This document shows positions 7,442-13,483 of a stretch of DNA of 52,522 nucleotides, piece after piece. The stretch's first letter is position 1, and the number at the start of each line of letters is the position of its first letter. Origin of the DNA: Chloroflexota bacterium (GTDB lineage: Bacteria; Chloroflexota; UBA11872; VXOZ01); contig JAJEAH010000036.1 of NCBI GenBank assembly GCA_022824225.1, positions 1-52,522 on the forward strand, written 5' to 3'. The notes under the pieces are model-generated. The model was not told where the DNA came from. It saw only the letters and a list, made by a program, of their open reading frames with translations, and did no database searches. The translations under genes were made by a program, and so were the position numbers.

Positions 7442-8968
7442 CTACCCCTCGCCCGCATCCGCCAGCAGGTCGTCGCGTAGTTCCCGCTTCAGCACCTTGC
7501 CCATGGTGTTGCGGGGGAGTTCGTCGGCAAAATACACGTCGCTGGGCACCTGGTAGTCCACGGCGCGTTCGCGGCAGAAGTCGCGGATGCTGCGGGGCGT
7601 GGCGTCTGTGTCGGCGTCGGGGTCTTTCACCACCACGGCCACCACTTTTTCGCCGCGCAGGTCGTCGGGCAGGCCGAACACGGCGGACTCTTTCACACCG
7701 GGACAGTCGTTGAGCACGCGCTCGACCATGGGCGGATAGACGTTGAAGCCCTTGGTGATGATGAGATCGACTTTGCGCCCGATAAGAGTCAGGTACCCCT
7801 GCGGGTCCACGAAACCGAGGTCGCCGGTGGCAAAGAAGCCCTGGTGGGCGAACGCCTCGGCGGTGGCTTCCGGCCGGTTCAGGTAGTGGTCGAAGATCAC
7901 CGGGCCTTTCACCAGCACCTCGCCCACGGCATGCCCCTCCTTGGTGGTGGAGCCGTCCGCGAGCATCTTCATCTCGATGCCGTCCAGCGGCAGCCCCACG
8001 GAGCCCTGCACGCTCGGCGTGTCTATGGGCAAGCTGGCGATCACGTGGCTTTCGGTCATGCCGTACCGGTTGATGAGCGGATTCCTTAAAATACCCTCCA
8101 ACTCTGGTAAGACCTCTGGACGAATTGGCGCGGAACCGCACGTGAAGAGCCGCACGTGCGACCACTGCTCAGCCCGCTCCCGAAACTCAGGCCGCCCCAG
8201 AAACTGGTAGTACATGGGCGGGATGGCCATGAAGACCGTAGCGCTGTCGATGAGGTCTAAGGTGCGGATGGGATGGAACTGGTCCGCCATGAGCATGTGC
8301 GCGCCGGTGAGGAAGTTCACGTGGCTGGCGAAAGACAAACCGTGGATGTGGAAGAACGGCAGCACGTTCACGAGCACGTCGTCCGGCGTAAACGCCCAGC
8401 AGTCCGCCAGCGAACGCACCGCCGCGCCGAGATTGGCGTGGGTGTGCACCACGCCCTTGGGCTGGCCGGTGGTGCCGGACGAATAGAGCAGCAGCGCCCA
8501 GTCCTCGGCGGTGGTATCCGGCAGAGAGGCCGTGGGCTGCGGCTCTAACGTCAGGAATTCGTCGGCGTGCAGCACGCCCCGCAGCGGTATCTCTTCATCC
8601 TCAACCAAGCCCTGCAGCACCGGCAGTTCTGCGTCGCCGCCTACCGCCAGCGCCGCGCCGCTATCCTGGGCGTAGAACTGCATTTCGCGGGGCGTAAACT
8701 TGGAGTTCAGCGGCAATGAGACCCCGCCGGCCCGTATCGCGCCCAGATGCGCCAGCAGCAGCGCGGGCTTGTCCGCCGTATACAGGATCACGCGCTCACC
8801 GGCCCGCAAGCCCTGTGCCCGCAAATGCGCCGCCGCCGCCCGCGTGCGGGCATCCAACTCGGCATACGTCCAGGTCGCGCCCCGATACGTCAGCGCCGGC
8901 CGCTGGGCGAATTCCACAAACGCCGCTTCAAGCTGTGTTCGGAAAGACTGGATTCCCATCTCCGCCAA
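7442..8968 (-). CDS. AMP-forming acyl-CoA synthetase, MatB-like
   Basis: A 508-residue ANL-superfamily ligase. The phosphate loop YSSGTTGQPKGVVHTH lies near residue 165, LPFFHIHGL is the A4-type motif, YGMTES is the A5 motif, TGDLGFVDPQGY is the A7 aspartate motif, GRKVDLIITKGFNVYP is the hinge, and the C-terminal PRNTMGKVLKREL holds the catalytic lysine. The layout and the 'FFHIHGL...' and 'KGPVIFDHYLNRPEAT' stretches resemble malonyl-CoA synthetase (MatB) and related short-acid ligases, but substrate choice cannot be settled by eye. It activates a carboxylate via acyl-AMP and transfers it to CoA. It probably shares transcription with the downstream SDR. Confidence 0.88.
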   Translation of the reverse strand: MAEMGIQSFRTQLEAAFVEFAQRPALTYRGATWTYAELDARTRAAAAHLRAQGLRAGERVILYTADKPALLLAHLGAIRAGGVSLPLNSKFTPREMQFYAQDSGAALAVGGDAELPVLQGLVEDEEIPLRGVLHADEFLTLEPQPTASLPDTTAEDWALLLYSSGTTGQPKGVVHTHANLGAAVRSLADCWAFTPDDVLVNVLPFFHIHGLSFASHVNFLTGAHMLMADQFHPIRTLDLIDSATVFMAIPPMYYQFLGRPEFRERAEQWSHVRLFTCGSAPIRPEVLPELEGILRNPLINRYGMTESHVIASLPIDTPSVQGSVGLPLDGIEMKMLADGSTTKEGHAVGEVLVKGPVIFDHYLNRPEATAEAFAHQGFFATGDLGFVDPQGYLTLIGRKVDLIITKGFNVYPPMVERVLNDCPGVKESAVFGLPDDLRGEKVVAVVVKDPDADTDATPRSIRDFCRERAVDYQVPSDVYFADELPRNTMGKVLKRELRDDLLADAGEG

Positions 8969-9249
8969 TCTTCCGTAAGGCTTTGAAAACTGGAGAACTC
9001 ACACGAGACACGCGATTGCTATACTCTCTCAGTGATGATAGAGTGCACTGTAATATGATAAACTACTAAAGAGTAATATGTGCTCACTTAGGTAGGTCAG
9101 CGTGAAGGCGAACACGAGAAGGGTTACACCATGCGCTTCACCTCCCATGGTGGCGTATTCTTCTTGCCCATCTCTTAGTGCTTCCTTTGATCGCTTGCCC
9201 TAATCGCCTGTCTCAAATTAGTGCACCTTTGCACTTGAATATAGTGATG
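8969..9249. other. AT-rich spacer at left flank of the tRNA/R-M island
   Basis: A gene-free stretch. Base composition changes visibly here from GC-rich to near balanced (for example 9030-9080). It must hold the promoter of the minus-strand acyl-CoA synthetase. I see no direct repeat of the tRNA 3' ends that would mark an attachment site. Confidence 0.45.
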
Positions 9250-9335
9250 CGGAGGGGCGGGGAATTGAACCCACTCGCAGTGTACACGAGTTGCGGGCGT
9301 CTAAGGCCCGTTGCTCACCTGAGCGGCACCCCTCC
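9250..9335 (-). tRNA. Unusual tRNA, anticodon UAG, fits 9/3 allo-tRNA fold
   Basis: Read on the minus strand, the gene gives a 5-bp anticodon stem CGGGC/GCCCG with loop CTTAGAC (anticodon UAG, DNA 9301-9303). A 7/5 acceptor/T-stem leaves the T-stem unpaired at two positions. A 9/3 reading pairs completely: acceptor GGAGGGGTG with CGCCCCTCC (one T-G wobble) and T-stem GGG/CCC around TTCAATT. The D-arm is GCTC-AGGT-GAGC with a four-base loop, as in tRNA-Sec. The variable arm is long (stem ACTCG/CGAGT) and the discriminator is G, both serine-type features. CCA is not encoded. By anticodon it reads Leu CUA; by body it looks SerRS-charged. This matches the 8/4 and 9/3 'allo-tRNAs' known from metagenomes. 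Confidence 0.82.
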
Positions 9336-9408
9336 GATATGGTACCCCAGAAGAACCTAAAATCCGACTTGGCTAAGGCGGTTTTCAGGCACACCTTCTT
9401 GGGCACGG

Positions 9409-9482
9409 TGGGCCGTGGGAGACTTGAACTCCTAACCAAGGGGGTGAGAACCCCCTGCTCTGTCCCTTTGAGCTAACGGCCC
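9409..9482 (-). tRNA. tRNA with CUC (Glu) anticodon on a lysine-like body
   Basis: A 74-base canonical cloverleaf on the minus strand: acceptor GGGCCGT/ACGGCCC, D-arm GCTC/GAGC, anticodon stem GGGGG/CCCCT with loop TTCTCAC (anticodon CTC), five-base variable loop TGGTT, T-stem AGGAG/CTCCC with an A-C mismatch at the base, discriminator A. CCA is not encoded. The 5' GGGCCGTTAGCTCA, the TTGGT variable loop and the acceptor pair are what bacterial tRNA-Lys looks like, whereas typical tRNA-Glu has a different D-arm and a shorter variable loop. It is therefore either a divergent tRNA-Glu or a tRNA-Lys with a changed third anticodon base. It lies 73 bases upstream (in transcription sense) of the UAG tRNA. 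Confidence 0.85.
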
Positions 9483-9555
9483 ATCAACTAGGCGGGCAGC
9501 TAGGTGAAGCGGCAACTTCCCTGGCTGCCCGTTGATTTAAGGTGGTCGGTTGTAG

Positions 9556-10053
9556 CTAGAATGGTAAGTCATCGGGATCAACGGTTCCTTCGCCTCCGTT
9601 GGGCGCAATAACCACTTCCACAATCCACCGCCATGTACGAGGCCCAACGCGTTCAACGGGTTCACCCCGCCGCATGAGTTGATGCGCGGCCGCGTCAACA
9701 GTGGCAACTGGGTTTTCCGCCTTCATCCGAACGCGCATTTTGCGGATACGAAGTGCGATTTCTTGAGAACTAATAGGCGCGCCTTGCGCCTGCCTCAAGA
9801 CTTCACGAATTGCGTCCCGGATCGTCATCTGCTCACTCTCGTCAGCATCAAACAGGGGCGCGTCTGGCACTTCCTCTTCCGGGACTCCTTTGGTAATGAA
9901 ATTCAGCCAGGATTCGAGGCCTTGAATAAGCGCAGCCAATGCCTCACGTTCTTCATCAACGTGTCGCATTCGGTCGTATGCCCAAGATAGCTGACTCCGT
10001 GTAGCATCCACATCCATGTCTAAGTCCACTGGCAACCTCCACTCAGTTTGCAT
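9556..10053 (-). CDS. Hypothetical protein with C-terminal winged-helix-like domain
   Basis: A 165-residue protein. Residues 1-55 are charged and helical and may form a coiled coil. Residues about 75-145 (MTIRDAIREVLRQAQGAPIS... then VDAAAHQLMRRGEPVERVG and RTWRWI) have the helix-turn-helix-wing rhythm of HARE-HTH/winged-helix domains, which occur in chromatin and restriction-modification proteins. I infer DNA binding; no enzyme motif is present. It lies upstream of, and on the same strand as, the two unusual tRNA genes (74-base gap) and may be co-transcribed with them. It is divergent from the methyltransferase. Confidence 0.65.
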   Translation of the reverse strand: MQTEWRLPVDLDMDVDATRSQLSWAYDRMRHVDEEREALAALIQGLESWLNFITKGVPEEEVPDAPLFDADESEQMTIRDAIREVLRQAQGAPISSQEIALRIRKMRVRMKAENPVATVDAAAHQLMRRGEPVERVGPRTWRWIVEVVIAPNGGEGTVDPDDLPF

Positions 10054-10424
10054 AAATCAATGGCGGTGGGAAAAGCGGGCCACTTAGCGCCTATGAGACT
10101 GTTGCTTTCAGATTAGGCTGGAGAGAACGGCCACGGTTTCCTTACTGTACCATTAAAAAGTCCATCCTGTCCATAGATAAACAAGCAGGCTATTTTCATG
10201 CCCCGTCTTGACTAACGCCAATGCTAATTGGATACGCAAGCAGGCGTTAGCTTCATGTTAGGAAACTATATGGATGGTGTCAAGCGACTGGCGGTTGTGG
10301 CTTATTCCTACTTCCTATTTTCTTAAACCGATCAAGACAATGGCTGATCCACTTGACGGAATGACCGCTCGCAACATAGGATGATTTCCAGCGATCTCAT
10401 CCGTTGACTTGAGGGGGTGAGTGT
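10054..10424. promoter_or_regulatory. AT-rich divergent promoter region with inverted repeat
   Basis: A 371-base gene-free region between the divergent winged-helix gene and the methyltransferase. It contains a perfect 8-bp inverted repeat, CTAACGCC at 10212-10219 and GGCGTTAG at 10243-10250, separated by 23 bases. This could be an operator controlling the restriction-modification genes or a hairpin. The methyltransferase start is preceded by GAGGGGGTGA. No clear -10/-35 pair stands out. Confidence 0.4.
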
Positions 10425-11465
10425 ATGCCTCTCACAGCGATTAGCTTATTTGCCGGCGCCGGTGGCATGGATATCGGTGTTGACGACGCTGGCTTCAATA
10501 CGGTGTGCGCCATAGAGAGCGATCTCCATTGCGCCGCAACTCTGCGGCGTAATGGCCGAAGGAAACTCGTTTGCCAAACGGACATACGCGTTGTTGACCC
10601 TACTCGTTTGCTAGATGTCCTCGGGTTAGAGAAGGGATCAGTCGCGCTTCTTCACGCTGGACCGCCATGCCAGCCCTTTAGCCAAATAGGAAAAAAGGGG
10701 GGGTTGCGTGATCCGCGTGGCGCGTTGATCTTCGAGGTAGTTAGATTTGCCGAGGCTATTCGACCAACAACGATACTTATCGAGCAAGTTCCTACTTTTC
10801 TGCGAGCGAAAACGGCAGTTGGCCAGGGGTTGGTAGAGGATTTGCGAACTGAGTTTCGGCGCTTGAATTACGACTTGTACGTTAGTGTACTGGACGCAAG
10901 CGAATACGGCGTCCCTCAACGCAGACGCCGCGTGGCCATGGTCTGCGTGCCTGCCGGACAACCGTTCAGTTTTCCCGTCTTGGCAAAACGCACTCTTTCT
11001 ACGGTCGGGGAAGCACTCAAGGGACTTCCCCCGCCATCCACAAACGGAGAAGAACCTCTAATCCCAAATCATATTGACGTTACCCCTGCTCGTGACCAGG
11101 AACGAATCGCTTACGTGCCAGAGGGATTGTGGCTTTCCAAAGTACCCAACGTCCCCCCCGACATACTTCAAAAACTGACGCGCAAAGATACCACCAAGTT
11201 CCGACGCCTGAGCAGAGCAGACCTCGCGCCAACTCTTCGCTGTGGCGAAGCCCCGTACCATCCTGTCGAAAACAGATACATCACTCCTCGAGAAGCCGCG
11301 CGCCTGCAAGGTTTTCCTGATAAGCATGTATTCGAGGGCCCCATACGGCGTCGAACGGGTAGTGTGCAGGACCTTGACCAGCACCGCCAAGTTGCTAATG
11401 CAGTGCCACCTCCCATGGCGCGTTCCGTAGCTGCGGACCTGCGGAGCAAACTGTGCCTTACGTAG
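10425..11465 (+). CDS. DNA (cytosine-5) methyltransferase
   Basis: A 346-residue C5 methyltransferase with the motifs in canonical order: I, LFAGAGGMD (residues 8-16, SAM binding); IV, GPPCQPFS with catalytic C82; VI, IEQVP (the usual ENV appears as E120-Q-V, a tolerated variant); VIII, QRRRRV (165-170); IX, RLQGFPD (293-299); X, QVANAVPPP. The target-recognition region lies between about 175 and 285. It methylates carbon 5 of a cytosine in the site also cut by its partner enzyme. Its stop codon overlaps the GTG start of the NotI-like gene by 13 bases, so the two are translationally linked. Codon use is less GC-rich than flanking genes; Leu63 uses CTA, the codon matched by the nearby UAG tRNA. 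Confidence 0.95.
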   Translation: MPLTAISLFAGAGGMDIGVDDAGFNTVCAIESDLHCAATLRRNGRRKLVCQTDIRVVDPTRLLDVLGLEKGSVALLHAGPPCQPFSQIGKKGGLRDPRGALIFEVVRFAEAIRPTTILIEQVPTFLRAKTAVGQGLVEDLRTEFRRLNYDLYVSVLDASEYGVPQRRRRVAMVCVPAGQPFSFPVLAKRTLSTVGEALKGLPPPSTNGEEPLIPNHIDVTPARDQERIAYVPEGLWLSKVPNVPPDILQKLTRKDTTKFRRLSRADLAPTLRCGEAPYHPVENRYITPREAARLQGFPDKHVFEGPIRRRTGSVQDLDQHRQVANAVPPPMARSVAADLRSKLCLT

Positions 11466-12415
11466 AAGAGTTGTATGGTCAACGCCTTGCAGAAGATATG
11501 GATGGGGCATCGTGCAGACGCGCTTGGTGCCCATTCATGGATGCTATATGCGATGGCGGCGGCAATCGCGATATGGCTCGAGTGGACGCTTCCGATCCGG
11601 CCCTTGGCCCCTATTTCCACAAAGAGGTTGGGCAGGCGACTAACGGCTATATTCCATGTGGCGTTTGTTCAATTCGGCTACCGAAGGAAAGCACTGTGTG
11701 GGCGATTTGCCCCCGTCGTCTTCTGTCATTCAGAGGCAGCGGCGTCGCTGAACAGCAAGCTGACCTGGCCAATCGCATTTTCGCTTTAGCTGGATATCAA
11801 CCGAATCAGGAGGTTTCCGTCTGGTCTGAGGTCTCACTTAGCGAAACTGGAGCGGGCGGCGCGAGATTCAAATACCGCCTAGATTATGTGCTGCGAAGCA
11901 CTGAGGAGAAGTCTGCGCCTGTAATTGTTGAAGTCATGACTTGCTCAACGTCAGGGGGCAACCGATCAAGAGGGACAGACATACAAGGTGCGTTTAGGCG
12001 AGCAGTTCTGTTCGCGCACAGGGTTTCCAGTGATCCCGTTGAATCTCCTGGTGTAAATCTCAGGCAAGTTTGGGCAAGGATGGCATCGCAAATGATTGCA
12101 AAGTCTGAGGCAGCCAACAGTTGGGGCGGGCGAACAATCTGGGTTGTTCAAGATCACTTGGTGAATTACATACGCGCAAACACCGCTCTGCCGCTTGATG
12201 ATCTCCACTCACCAGAGTGGGAACCAGGTGAGGTGAACCTTCTTGTGTCAGACTTGAGGCGCGCTATAGACCTTTACTCTGGGCCCATCAGGCCGTCCAA
12301 TTCATCAAAAGCATGCTGGATGGAGTTGCTAGGCGCTCCCCACATTCCTACACTTGACAGCATCATGCAAAAGCTCGAAGCGACCAAACCGATCGCTACA
12401 TTTCGCATTGCGTAA
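11453..12415 (+). CDS. NotI-family type II restriction endonuclease
   Basis: A 320-residue protein starting at GTG 11453. The N-terminus carries the cysteine pattern of NotI-type enzymes: ELYGQ, then WCPFMDAIC (C26, C33), CGVCSI (C69, C72) and AICPRR (C86). In NotI such cysteines bind iron. The likely nuclease core is YRLDYVL (D144) followed by VIVEVMT (E160); the lysine of a textbook PD-(D/E)xK site is not obvious. Its place directly after a C5 methyltransferase and before vsr supports restriction function. The recognition site is unknown. GCGGCCGC occurs at least five times in the window, so that site is not avoided, which is compatible with protection by methylation or with a different specificity. 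A later start at ATG 11498 would lose the ELYG motif. Confidence 0.82.
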   Translation: MPYVEELYGQRLAEDMDGASCRRAWCPFMDAICDGGGNRDMARVDASDPALGPYFHKEVGQATNGYIPCGVCSIRLPKESTVWAICPRRLLSFRGSGVAEQQADLANRIFALAGYQPNQEVSVWSEVSLSETGAGGARFKYRLDYVLRSTEEKSAPVIVEVMTCSTSGGNRSRGTDIQGAFRRAVLFAHRVSSDPVESPGVNLRQVWARMASQMIAKSEAANSWGGRTIWVVQDHLVNYIRANTALPLDDLHSPEWEPGEVNLLVSDLRRAIDLYSGPIRPSNSSKACWMELLGAPHIPTLDSIMQKLEATKPIATFRIA

Positions 12416-12479
12416 TTGCTTGCTAAATGGCTCATATAAGTTGACACCCAAAGCGTTCCCCTTTTAGTGTGAGCGGATC

Positions 12480-12887
12480 ATGGCCGACACCGTATCGCCT
12501 GAAGTGCGGAGTAGGGTGATGGCGCGGGTCAAATCCAAAGACATGAAGCCAGAAATTAAAGTTCGTCGACTGCTTCATGCTCTTGGGTACAGATATCGCC
12601 TCCACAGGGCCGACTTGCCTGGTCGTCCTGATCTTGTTTTTCCTTCAAGGCGCAAGATCGTGTTTGTGAACGGATGTTTTTGGCACAGTCATTCGAATTG
12701 CGTTCAGGTGCGCATTCCCGCCACCAATAGAGAATACTGGCTTTCTAAACTGGCGGGAAACAAAGCTAGAGACGAGCGCAACATAGTCTTGTTGAGAGAA
12801 AACGGTTGGGCGGTAATGACGGTTTGGGAATGCCAACTAGGAGATTTGGCAACGGTCACTGAACGACTTACTGCATTCCTTGATTAA
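12480..12887 (+). CDS. vsr: Very short patch repair endonuclease Vsr
   Basis: A 135-residue Vsr nuclease. The catalytic aspartate is D51 in LPGRPDLVFP. The zinc-binding segment FVNGCFWHSHSNC supplies C66, H69, H71 and C74. The start region SRVMARVKSKDMKPE is the conserved N-terminal recognition segment. Vsr nicks 5' of the T in T-G mismatches created by deamination of 5-methylcytosine, so it guards against mutation by the C5 methyltransferase two genes upstream. Methyltransferase, endonuclease and vsr together make a complete restriction-modification-repair cassette. The gene ends 14 bases from the convergent lipoprotein gene. Confidence 0.95.
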   Translation: MADTVSPEVRSRVMARVKSKDMKPEIKVRRLLHALGYRYRLHRADLPGRPDLVFPSRRKIVFVNGCFWHSHSNCVQVRIPATNREYWLSKLAGNKARDERNIVLLRENGWAVMTVWECQLGDLATVTERLTAFLD

Positions 12888-12901
12888 CGACCTCTCTGTT
12901 G

Positions 12902-13483
12902 TCAATGGTCAAGTTGTGCTATTACCTTATTCGGGTCAGTTGGCGGTCTCTGCTGTGGCGGCGCATCATAGCGTTCTACTTGATACCAACCCGAGGCGAA
13001 GATCAGGCCGTCATGCTTGATTACCCAGGCGTGCTTCGTTTCCAGGAACCCGCCTCTGGCCGGATTCTCAAAGACGTAGCTCACCCAGCGCCCCTCCTCG
13101 GTGGCAGCCAGCATGTCCGCGCCGAAATCGTAGCCGTTGGCGTCTACGCCCAAGGGTTTCTTGACAAACAAGCCGACGTTTTCCGGTATGGCGGCGTGCG
13201 CCAGCACCTCGGCGTCCTCACCGATGATGAAGATGTACCACTCGCCGTCCACGCTCTCCGGGGAGTTGTAGAAGGCGAGGGCGGCGTCGCGGCCTTCCGC
13301 GTCGTAACGACTGATCGCCGCGGCCACGAACGCCTTAGTATAGAGACCTGGTTCCGCCTCTCGGGAAACGGCATCCAAGCCTGGCAGCGCCGACGGCTGC
13401 GGGGGCTGGGGCACAGTCTGGCACGCCGCGAGCGCCACCACCCCAATGATGCACACCACAGCGGCAGCTATCCGACCGAACAT
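12902..13483 (-). CDS. Cache-domain lipoprotein
   Basis: A 193-residue exported protein. A hydrophobic signal segment (residues 6-20) ends in the lipobox LAAC, so C21 is the predicted lipidated residue. The body (residues 45-175) matches single Cache domains in pattern: AFVAAAISRYDAEGRDAALAF, then GEWYIFIIGEDAEVLAHA, YDFGADML and AWVIKHDGLIFASGWY. Cache domains bind small ligands outside the cell, usually as sensor modules. Here there is no kinase or chemotaxis output domain, so it may be a stand-alone binding lipoprotein. Composition returns to the GC-rich background, which marks the right edge of the island. Confidence 0.8.
   Translation of the reverse strand: MFGRIAAAVVCIIGVVALAACQTVPQPPQPSALPGLDAVSREAEPGLYTKAFVAAAISRYDAEGRDAALAFYNSPESVDGEWYIFIIGEDAEVLAHAAIPENVGLFVKKPLGVDANGYDFGADMLAATEEGRWVSYVFENPARGGFLETKHAWVIKHDGLIFASGWYQVERYDAPPQQRPPTDPNKVIAQLDH

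Follow-up and report, generated by a model that had tools for sequence, protein, structure and literature searches.

The closest described counterparts of the gene considered here are the 9/3 allo-tRNAs, reportedly described by Mukai et al. in 2017, which combine a 12-bp branch split 9/3, a long variable arm and a serine acceptor with G73 with a non-serine anticodon. In E. coli, G73, the acceptor and the variable arm direct a type II tRNA to SerRS and not to LeuRS. SerRS does not read the anticodon, and allo-tRNAs with leucine anticodons, 9/3 forms of which are already on record, insert serine efficiently in E. coli (PMC7609411). The source of the 9/3 allo-tRNAs was raw short-read metagenome data (PMC7590224), in which neighbouring genes are mostly lacking, and those described have a long D-stem (PMC7590224). 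A preliminary description of the present locus placed such RNAs mainly in Acidobacteria, but they are also found in Clostridia and Proteobacteria (PMC7609411). Our analyses of a window of 52,522 nucleotides from a Chloroflexota bacterium (contig JAJEAH010000036.1) concern a tRNA gene that, judged from its sequence, is probably a serine-type allo-tRNA of the 8/4–9/3 kind with a leucine anticodon and a build near that of phage tRNA-Ser. Unlike the described 9/3 allo-tRNAs, this gene has a D-stem of 4 bp and is found in an assembled genome, on a restriction-modification (R-M) island with a second irregular tRNA adjoining it.

Fold and class of the tRNA with anticodon UAG

The gene is 86 nt long, runs from 9335 down to 9250 on the minus strand and is composed, in 5' to 3' order, of GGAGGGGTG, CC, the D-arm, AA, the anticodon arm, CA, the variable arm, the T-arm, CGCCCCTCC and G (Table 1). 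ARAGORN labels it tRNA-Leu(tag). Folded without constraints, the RNA adopts the 9/3 cloverleaf, to which a C(-1):G73 pair is added, at -43.7 kcal/mol, as compared with -32.4 +/- 3.6 kcal/mol for shuffled versions (z -3.2); upon energy evaluation, the 9/3 form has -40.5 kcal/mol and a form with a 7-bp acceptor and two open positions -37.0 kcal/mol, a gap of 3.5 kcal/mol. The 9/3 fold of the preliminary description is borne out as the lowest-energy fold at exact coordinates, and a 7/5 fold does leave two T-stem positions unpaired, viz. 49:65 and 50:64. The accompanying statement that the acceptor and T-stem pair fully is correct only when a wobble is counted, as acceptor pairs 1–7 are GC GC AU GC GC GC GC, 8:65 is U.G, 9:64 is G-C and the T-stem consists of three G-C pairs.

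Table 1. Coordinates of the tRNA genes, their structural elements and the surrounding island (positions in the window)
Feature	Position	Strand	Remarks
Horizontally acquired insertion	8936..12917		GC ~50-58% vs ~65% around; missing from five same-genus genomes
9/3 tRNA gene	9250..9335	-	Anticodon UAG; serine-type acceptor; G73; CCA unencoded (CAT comes next)
9-bp acceptor, 3' strand CGCCCCTCC	9251..9259	-	G73 at 9250
T-arm GGG-TTCAATT-CCC	9260..9272	-	3 bp
Long variable arm ACTCG-TGTACACTG-CGAGT	9273..9291	-
Anticodon arm CGGGC-CTTAGAC-GCCCG	9294..9310	-	Anticodon TAG 9303-9301; A37
D-arm GCTC-AGGT-GAGC	9313..9324	-	4 bp; 4-nt loop retaining GG
9-bp acceptor, 5' strand GGAGGGGTG	9327..9335	-
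Irregular tRNA, anticodon CUC	9409..9482	-	UAGCUC D-arm; A49:C65 mismatch; CCG after A73
165-aa protein	9556..10053	-	HARE-HTH match weak, under Pfam cut-off; upstream of both tRNAs, same strand
C5-cytosine DNA methyltransferase, type II R-M system	10425..11465	+
Candidate type II restriction endonuclease	11453..12415	+	Weak PADLOC match
Vsr mismatch endonuclease	12480..12887	+

Positions 49:65 and 50:64 are both unpaired in this gene alone among the 50 tRNA genes of the genome, and two other genes have a single mismatch. An 8/4 arrangement is impossible because 50:64 is U-C. The pairing of positions 8 and 9 is in itself weak evidence for a 9/3 branch, because 8:65 and 9:64 could likewise pair in many of the phylum's ordinary 7/5 tRNA-Ser, whose T-stem is intact; the case rests mainly on the disrupted T-stem in combination with a D-loop of 4 nt and a D-arm linker whose 2 nt are a normal length only if the acceptor has 9 bp. 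The four-base loop of the D-arm is Sec-like, as previously stated; the short stem, flanked by two C.A mismatches, is not of the long Sec-like type. U8 pairs with G65 in this fold and is consequently not free for a U8-A14 contact. At least CC follows the discriminator in 48 of the 49 other tRNAs of the genome (the tRNA-Sec row of this comparison is shifted by one base owing to its longer acceptor), whereas the UAG gene does not encode CCA. The modelled C(-1):G73 pair might interfere with the processing of the ends or with recognition by SerRS.

In the Rfam scan, the canonical tRNA family RF00005 is not listed for the gene at the gathering threshold, and the site shows only tRNA-Sec (RF01852), the best match of its clan and the best Rfam match overall, at 38.5 bits and under the family cut-off of 47. 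Bacterial tRNA-Sec shares with the gene a 4-nt D-loop (NGGT), a long variable arm and G73, but has a 13-bp rather than a 12-bp branch, a 6-bp rather than a 4-bp D-stem and the anticodon UCA instead of UAG; on these grounds and on its score a tRNA-Sec identity was rejected, and the genome owns a true tRNA-Sec that scores over the cut-off. Two features of tRNA-Leu, viz. A73 and the U8-A14 contact, are absent. Three features of the 9/3 allo-tRNAs are present, namely the 9-bp acceptor with a 3-bp T-stem (one U.G wobble included), the long variable arm, and SerRS identity elements combined with a non-serine anticodon; since the long Sec-like D-stem is missing, we have filed the gene as a variant of this class.

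Serine identity elements and the reading of CUA

The long variable arm and discriminator G of the preliminary description are confirmed, and the acceptor is of serine type: pairs 1–7 together with G73 are identical to those of two tRNA-Ser belonging to the genome itself, tRNA-Ser(UGA) and tRNA-Ser(GCU). All five ordinary tRNA-Leu of the genome have A73 where this gene has G73, and position 37 is G in those that read CUN codons and A here. The genome set includes an ordinary tRNA-Leu(UAG) (L042), four more tRNA-Leu, and tRNA-Ser with the anticodons UGA, GCU, CGA and GGA. In view of this ordinary tRNA-Leu(UAG), the full serine set and the real tRNA-Sec, the gene at 9250-9335 is an extra one; it is not the sole CUA-decoding tRNA of the genome, the circumstance in which a normal leucine function had been thought more likely. 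The assignment of the contig to the bin is backed by its carrying the bin's sole copies of tRNA-Tyr, tRNA-Asp and tRNA-Thr(CGU).

Serine at leucine CUA codons, the outcome previously suggested, has left no sign in the codons compared. Opposite CTA codons, 21 orthologue alignments have Leu 15 times, Val twice, Phe twice and Ser never; this comparison covers 19 sites only and relies on crude ORF calls. CTA makes up 4.3% of leucine codons here and 4.5% in a sister genome (G001) without this tRNA. Seven CTA codons are located on the island, including Vsr codon 120, for the L of WECQL, and codon 63 of the methyltransferase, which had been pointed out before. These comparisons indicate that CUA still means leucine and that serine insertion, if any, would be a minority event.

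Relatives among phage tRNA-Ser genes

A pattern search of IMG/VR for a serine-type acceptor and a compact D-arm yielded phage tRNA-Ser genes, several of them within tRNA arrays. With a model built from the UAG gene alone, the best non-self scores are those of the phage tRNA-Ser L145 (47.0 bits) and L144 (38.6 bits), and ordinary tRNA-Ser reach at most 37.4 bits among those seen. Across the UAG gene and the phage tRNA-Ser, pair 7:66 occurs as GC/UA/AU and pair 8:65 as UG/GC/AU, and 49:65 is broken in the UAG gene and in four of the five phage genes (L145, L144, L073, L142, and L139). The changes at 7:66 and 8:65 are compensatory changes in an extended acceptor, the kind of evidence by which the preliminary description had proposed to judge the fold. 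There is little such support for the ninth pair, 9:64, which is formed in the UAG gene and L145, is G.U in L144 and is absent in L073, L142 and L139, and for this reason the "9" of the branch is less secure than the "8". The likeness to the phage 8/4 tRNA-Ser extends to the acceptor end, to the compact D-arm in L145 and to the T-loop TTCAATT in L144 and L145; the phage genes differ in having serine anticodons and mostly 8/4 branches.

Wider searches returned no second member. BLAST of the UAG tRNA against 100 relatives, phages and plasmids found no real homologue, and the covariance model R1 gave only the self-match in the class (41 genomes), the phylum (400) and an Acidobacteria-centred set (396), where strict filters left few candidates scored in the large sets and the absence is accordingly soft. 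In the phylum, R2 recovered ordinary tRNA-Ser and tRNA-Sec as a positive control and, in the loci that were read, no other gene of 9/3 type; the 396 genomes of the set centred on an Acidobacteria bin, a set without a positive control, gave no match to the UAG gene.

Two other pattern searches gave candidates that were rejected. The matches to a D-arm and T-arm pattern in 85,000 species genomes were tRNA-Sec, chance joins with canonical tRNAs and one UAU tRNA, and those to a first viral pattern were mostly 7/5-like phage tRNA-Ile(UAU) sharing the 4-nt D-loop, along with chance matches. In many phage tRNA-Ile(UAU) (L063, L065, L067, L069, L073, L079, L084, and others), the D-arm is of the form GCTC-NGGT-GAGC, its loop being of 4 nt, and the variable arm is long, both as in tRNA-Sec. 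The phage tRNA-Ser of L139, L142, L144, L145 and L073 have 8/4 acceptor branches, and ARAGORN calls no tRNA at that of L144.

The island and the interpretation of its tRNAs

The preliminary description left out both the second irregular tRNA nearby and the horizontally acquired R-M island on which the two genes are located. The drop in GC spans ~8,970-13,000, and matches to same-genus genomes end at 8935 and restart near 12918. In five same-genus genomes the flanking acyl-CoA ligase and cache-domain lipoprotein genes are adjacent, with 0.4-2.6 kb of other DNA between them, and neither island tRNA was found in that interval. The insertion is foreign, is low in GC and constitutes a type II R-M island, and as other genomes hold different cargo between the ligase and lipoprotein genes, this site is an insertion hotspot. 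The setting of an allo-tRNA on an R-M island seems to be new. The CUC tRNA, 70 bp from the UAG gene, has a body unlike that of the genome's own tRNA-Glu; its best matches are the genome's own tRNA-Met and tRNA-Ala and, among phage tRNAs, tRNA-Lys and tRNA-Arg. Another, ordinary tRNA-Glu(CUC) is present in the genome, where GAG is frequent, at about 30 per 1000 codons.

The reading that we prefer, with a probability of about 0.5, is that the gene encodes an allo-tRNA which accepts serine, reads CUA and has a 9/3 acceptor branch, and that it was brought in as cargo by a small type II R-M island. Its transcript would fold into the 9/3 cloverleaf, receive its CCA end from a CCA-adding enzyme and be charged by the host SerRS via the acceptor end, G73 and the variable arm irrespective of the anticodon; weak competition with the normal tRNA-Leu(UAG) may then place a rare serine at CUA codons. 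The 4-bp D-stem, the poorly supported ninth pair, the C(-1):G73 pair, the unencoded CCA, the lack of serine at CUA positions and the failure of the searches to find a close homologue all speak against it. An alternative is a decaying gene: a serine tRNA from a phage-like array would have become stranded on the island along with the CUC tRNA, its T-stem and anticodon would be drifting, and its 9/3 form would be partly luck. The two broken T-stem positions, the U.G at 8:65, the unencoded CCA, the T-stem mismatch and incomplete CCA of the CUC tRNA, the frequency of chance pairing at positions 8 and 9 in ordinary tRNA-Ser and the absence of the gene from all five sister genomes are consistent with decay, which we nevertheless hold to be somewhat unlikely: the other stems, including the 5-bp anticodon stem and the variable arm, are perfectly paired, the GG of the D-loop and the T-loop are intact, and it is precisely the two broken positions that complete a 9-bp acceptor, which the compact D-arm suits.

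A non-translational tRNA-like RNA tied to the island, e.g. an anticodon-nuclease sponge or a regulator of the R-M genes, is unlikely, as it retains the serine identity elements, U33 and the T/D-loop contacts of working tRNAs and as no nuclease target or RNA-binding partner was found on the island. Such a role would agree with the location on a defence-type island behind a same-strand HTH-like gene, with the cost that the CUC neighbour, misreading the common GAG, would impose if well expressed and mischarged, and with published irregular allo-tRNA-like transcripts that E. coli synthetases could not charge (PMC7609411). It is improbable that the island carries a deliberate missense tRNA pair (CUA to serine, GAG to another residue), or decoys, as a defence or stress module beside the R-M system. 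The least credible proposal is an ordinary extra tRNA-Leu(UAG), charged with leucine and of harmlessly odd shape; the anticodon, the long variable arm and the continued use of CUA for leucine would fit it, but G73, the serine acceptor, A37, the engaged U8, the 4-nt D-loop and the failure of the Rfam tRNA model at its cut-off do not. The assembled genome, the absence of the island from five sisters and the normal tRNA-Leu(UAG) counterpart make serine at CUA, decay and a decoy role separable by experiment.

The candidate restriction enzyme, which lies beside Vsr and the cytosine methyltransferase, has little similarity to named families; a homologue was found in one other genome of the phylum, with no tRNA nearby. 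The sister cargos at the insertion site (L127, L129 and L130), as judged by eye, consist of an endonuclease III-like gene, an HTH-nuclease with a methyltransferase, and a gene pair of no assigned kind.
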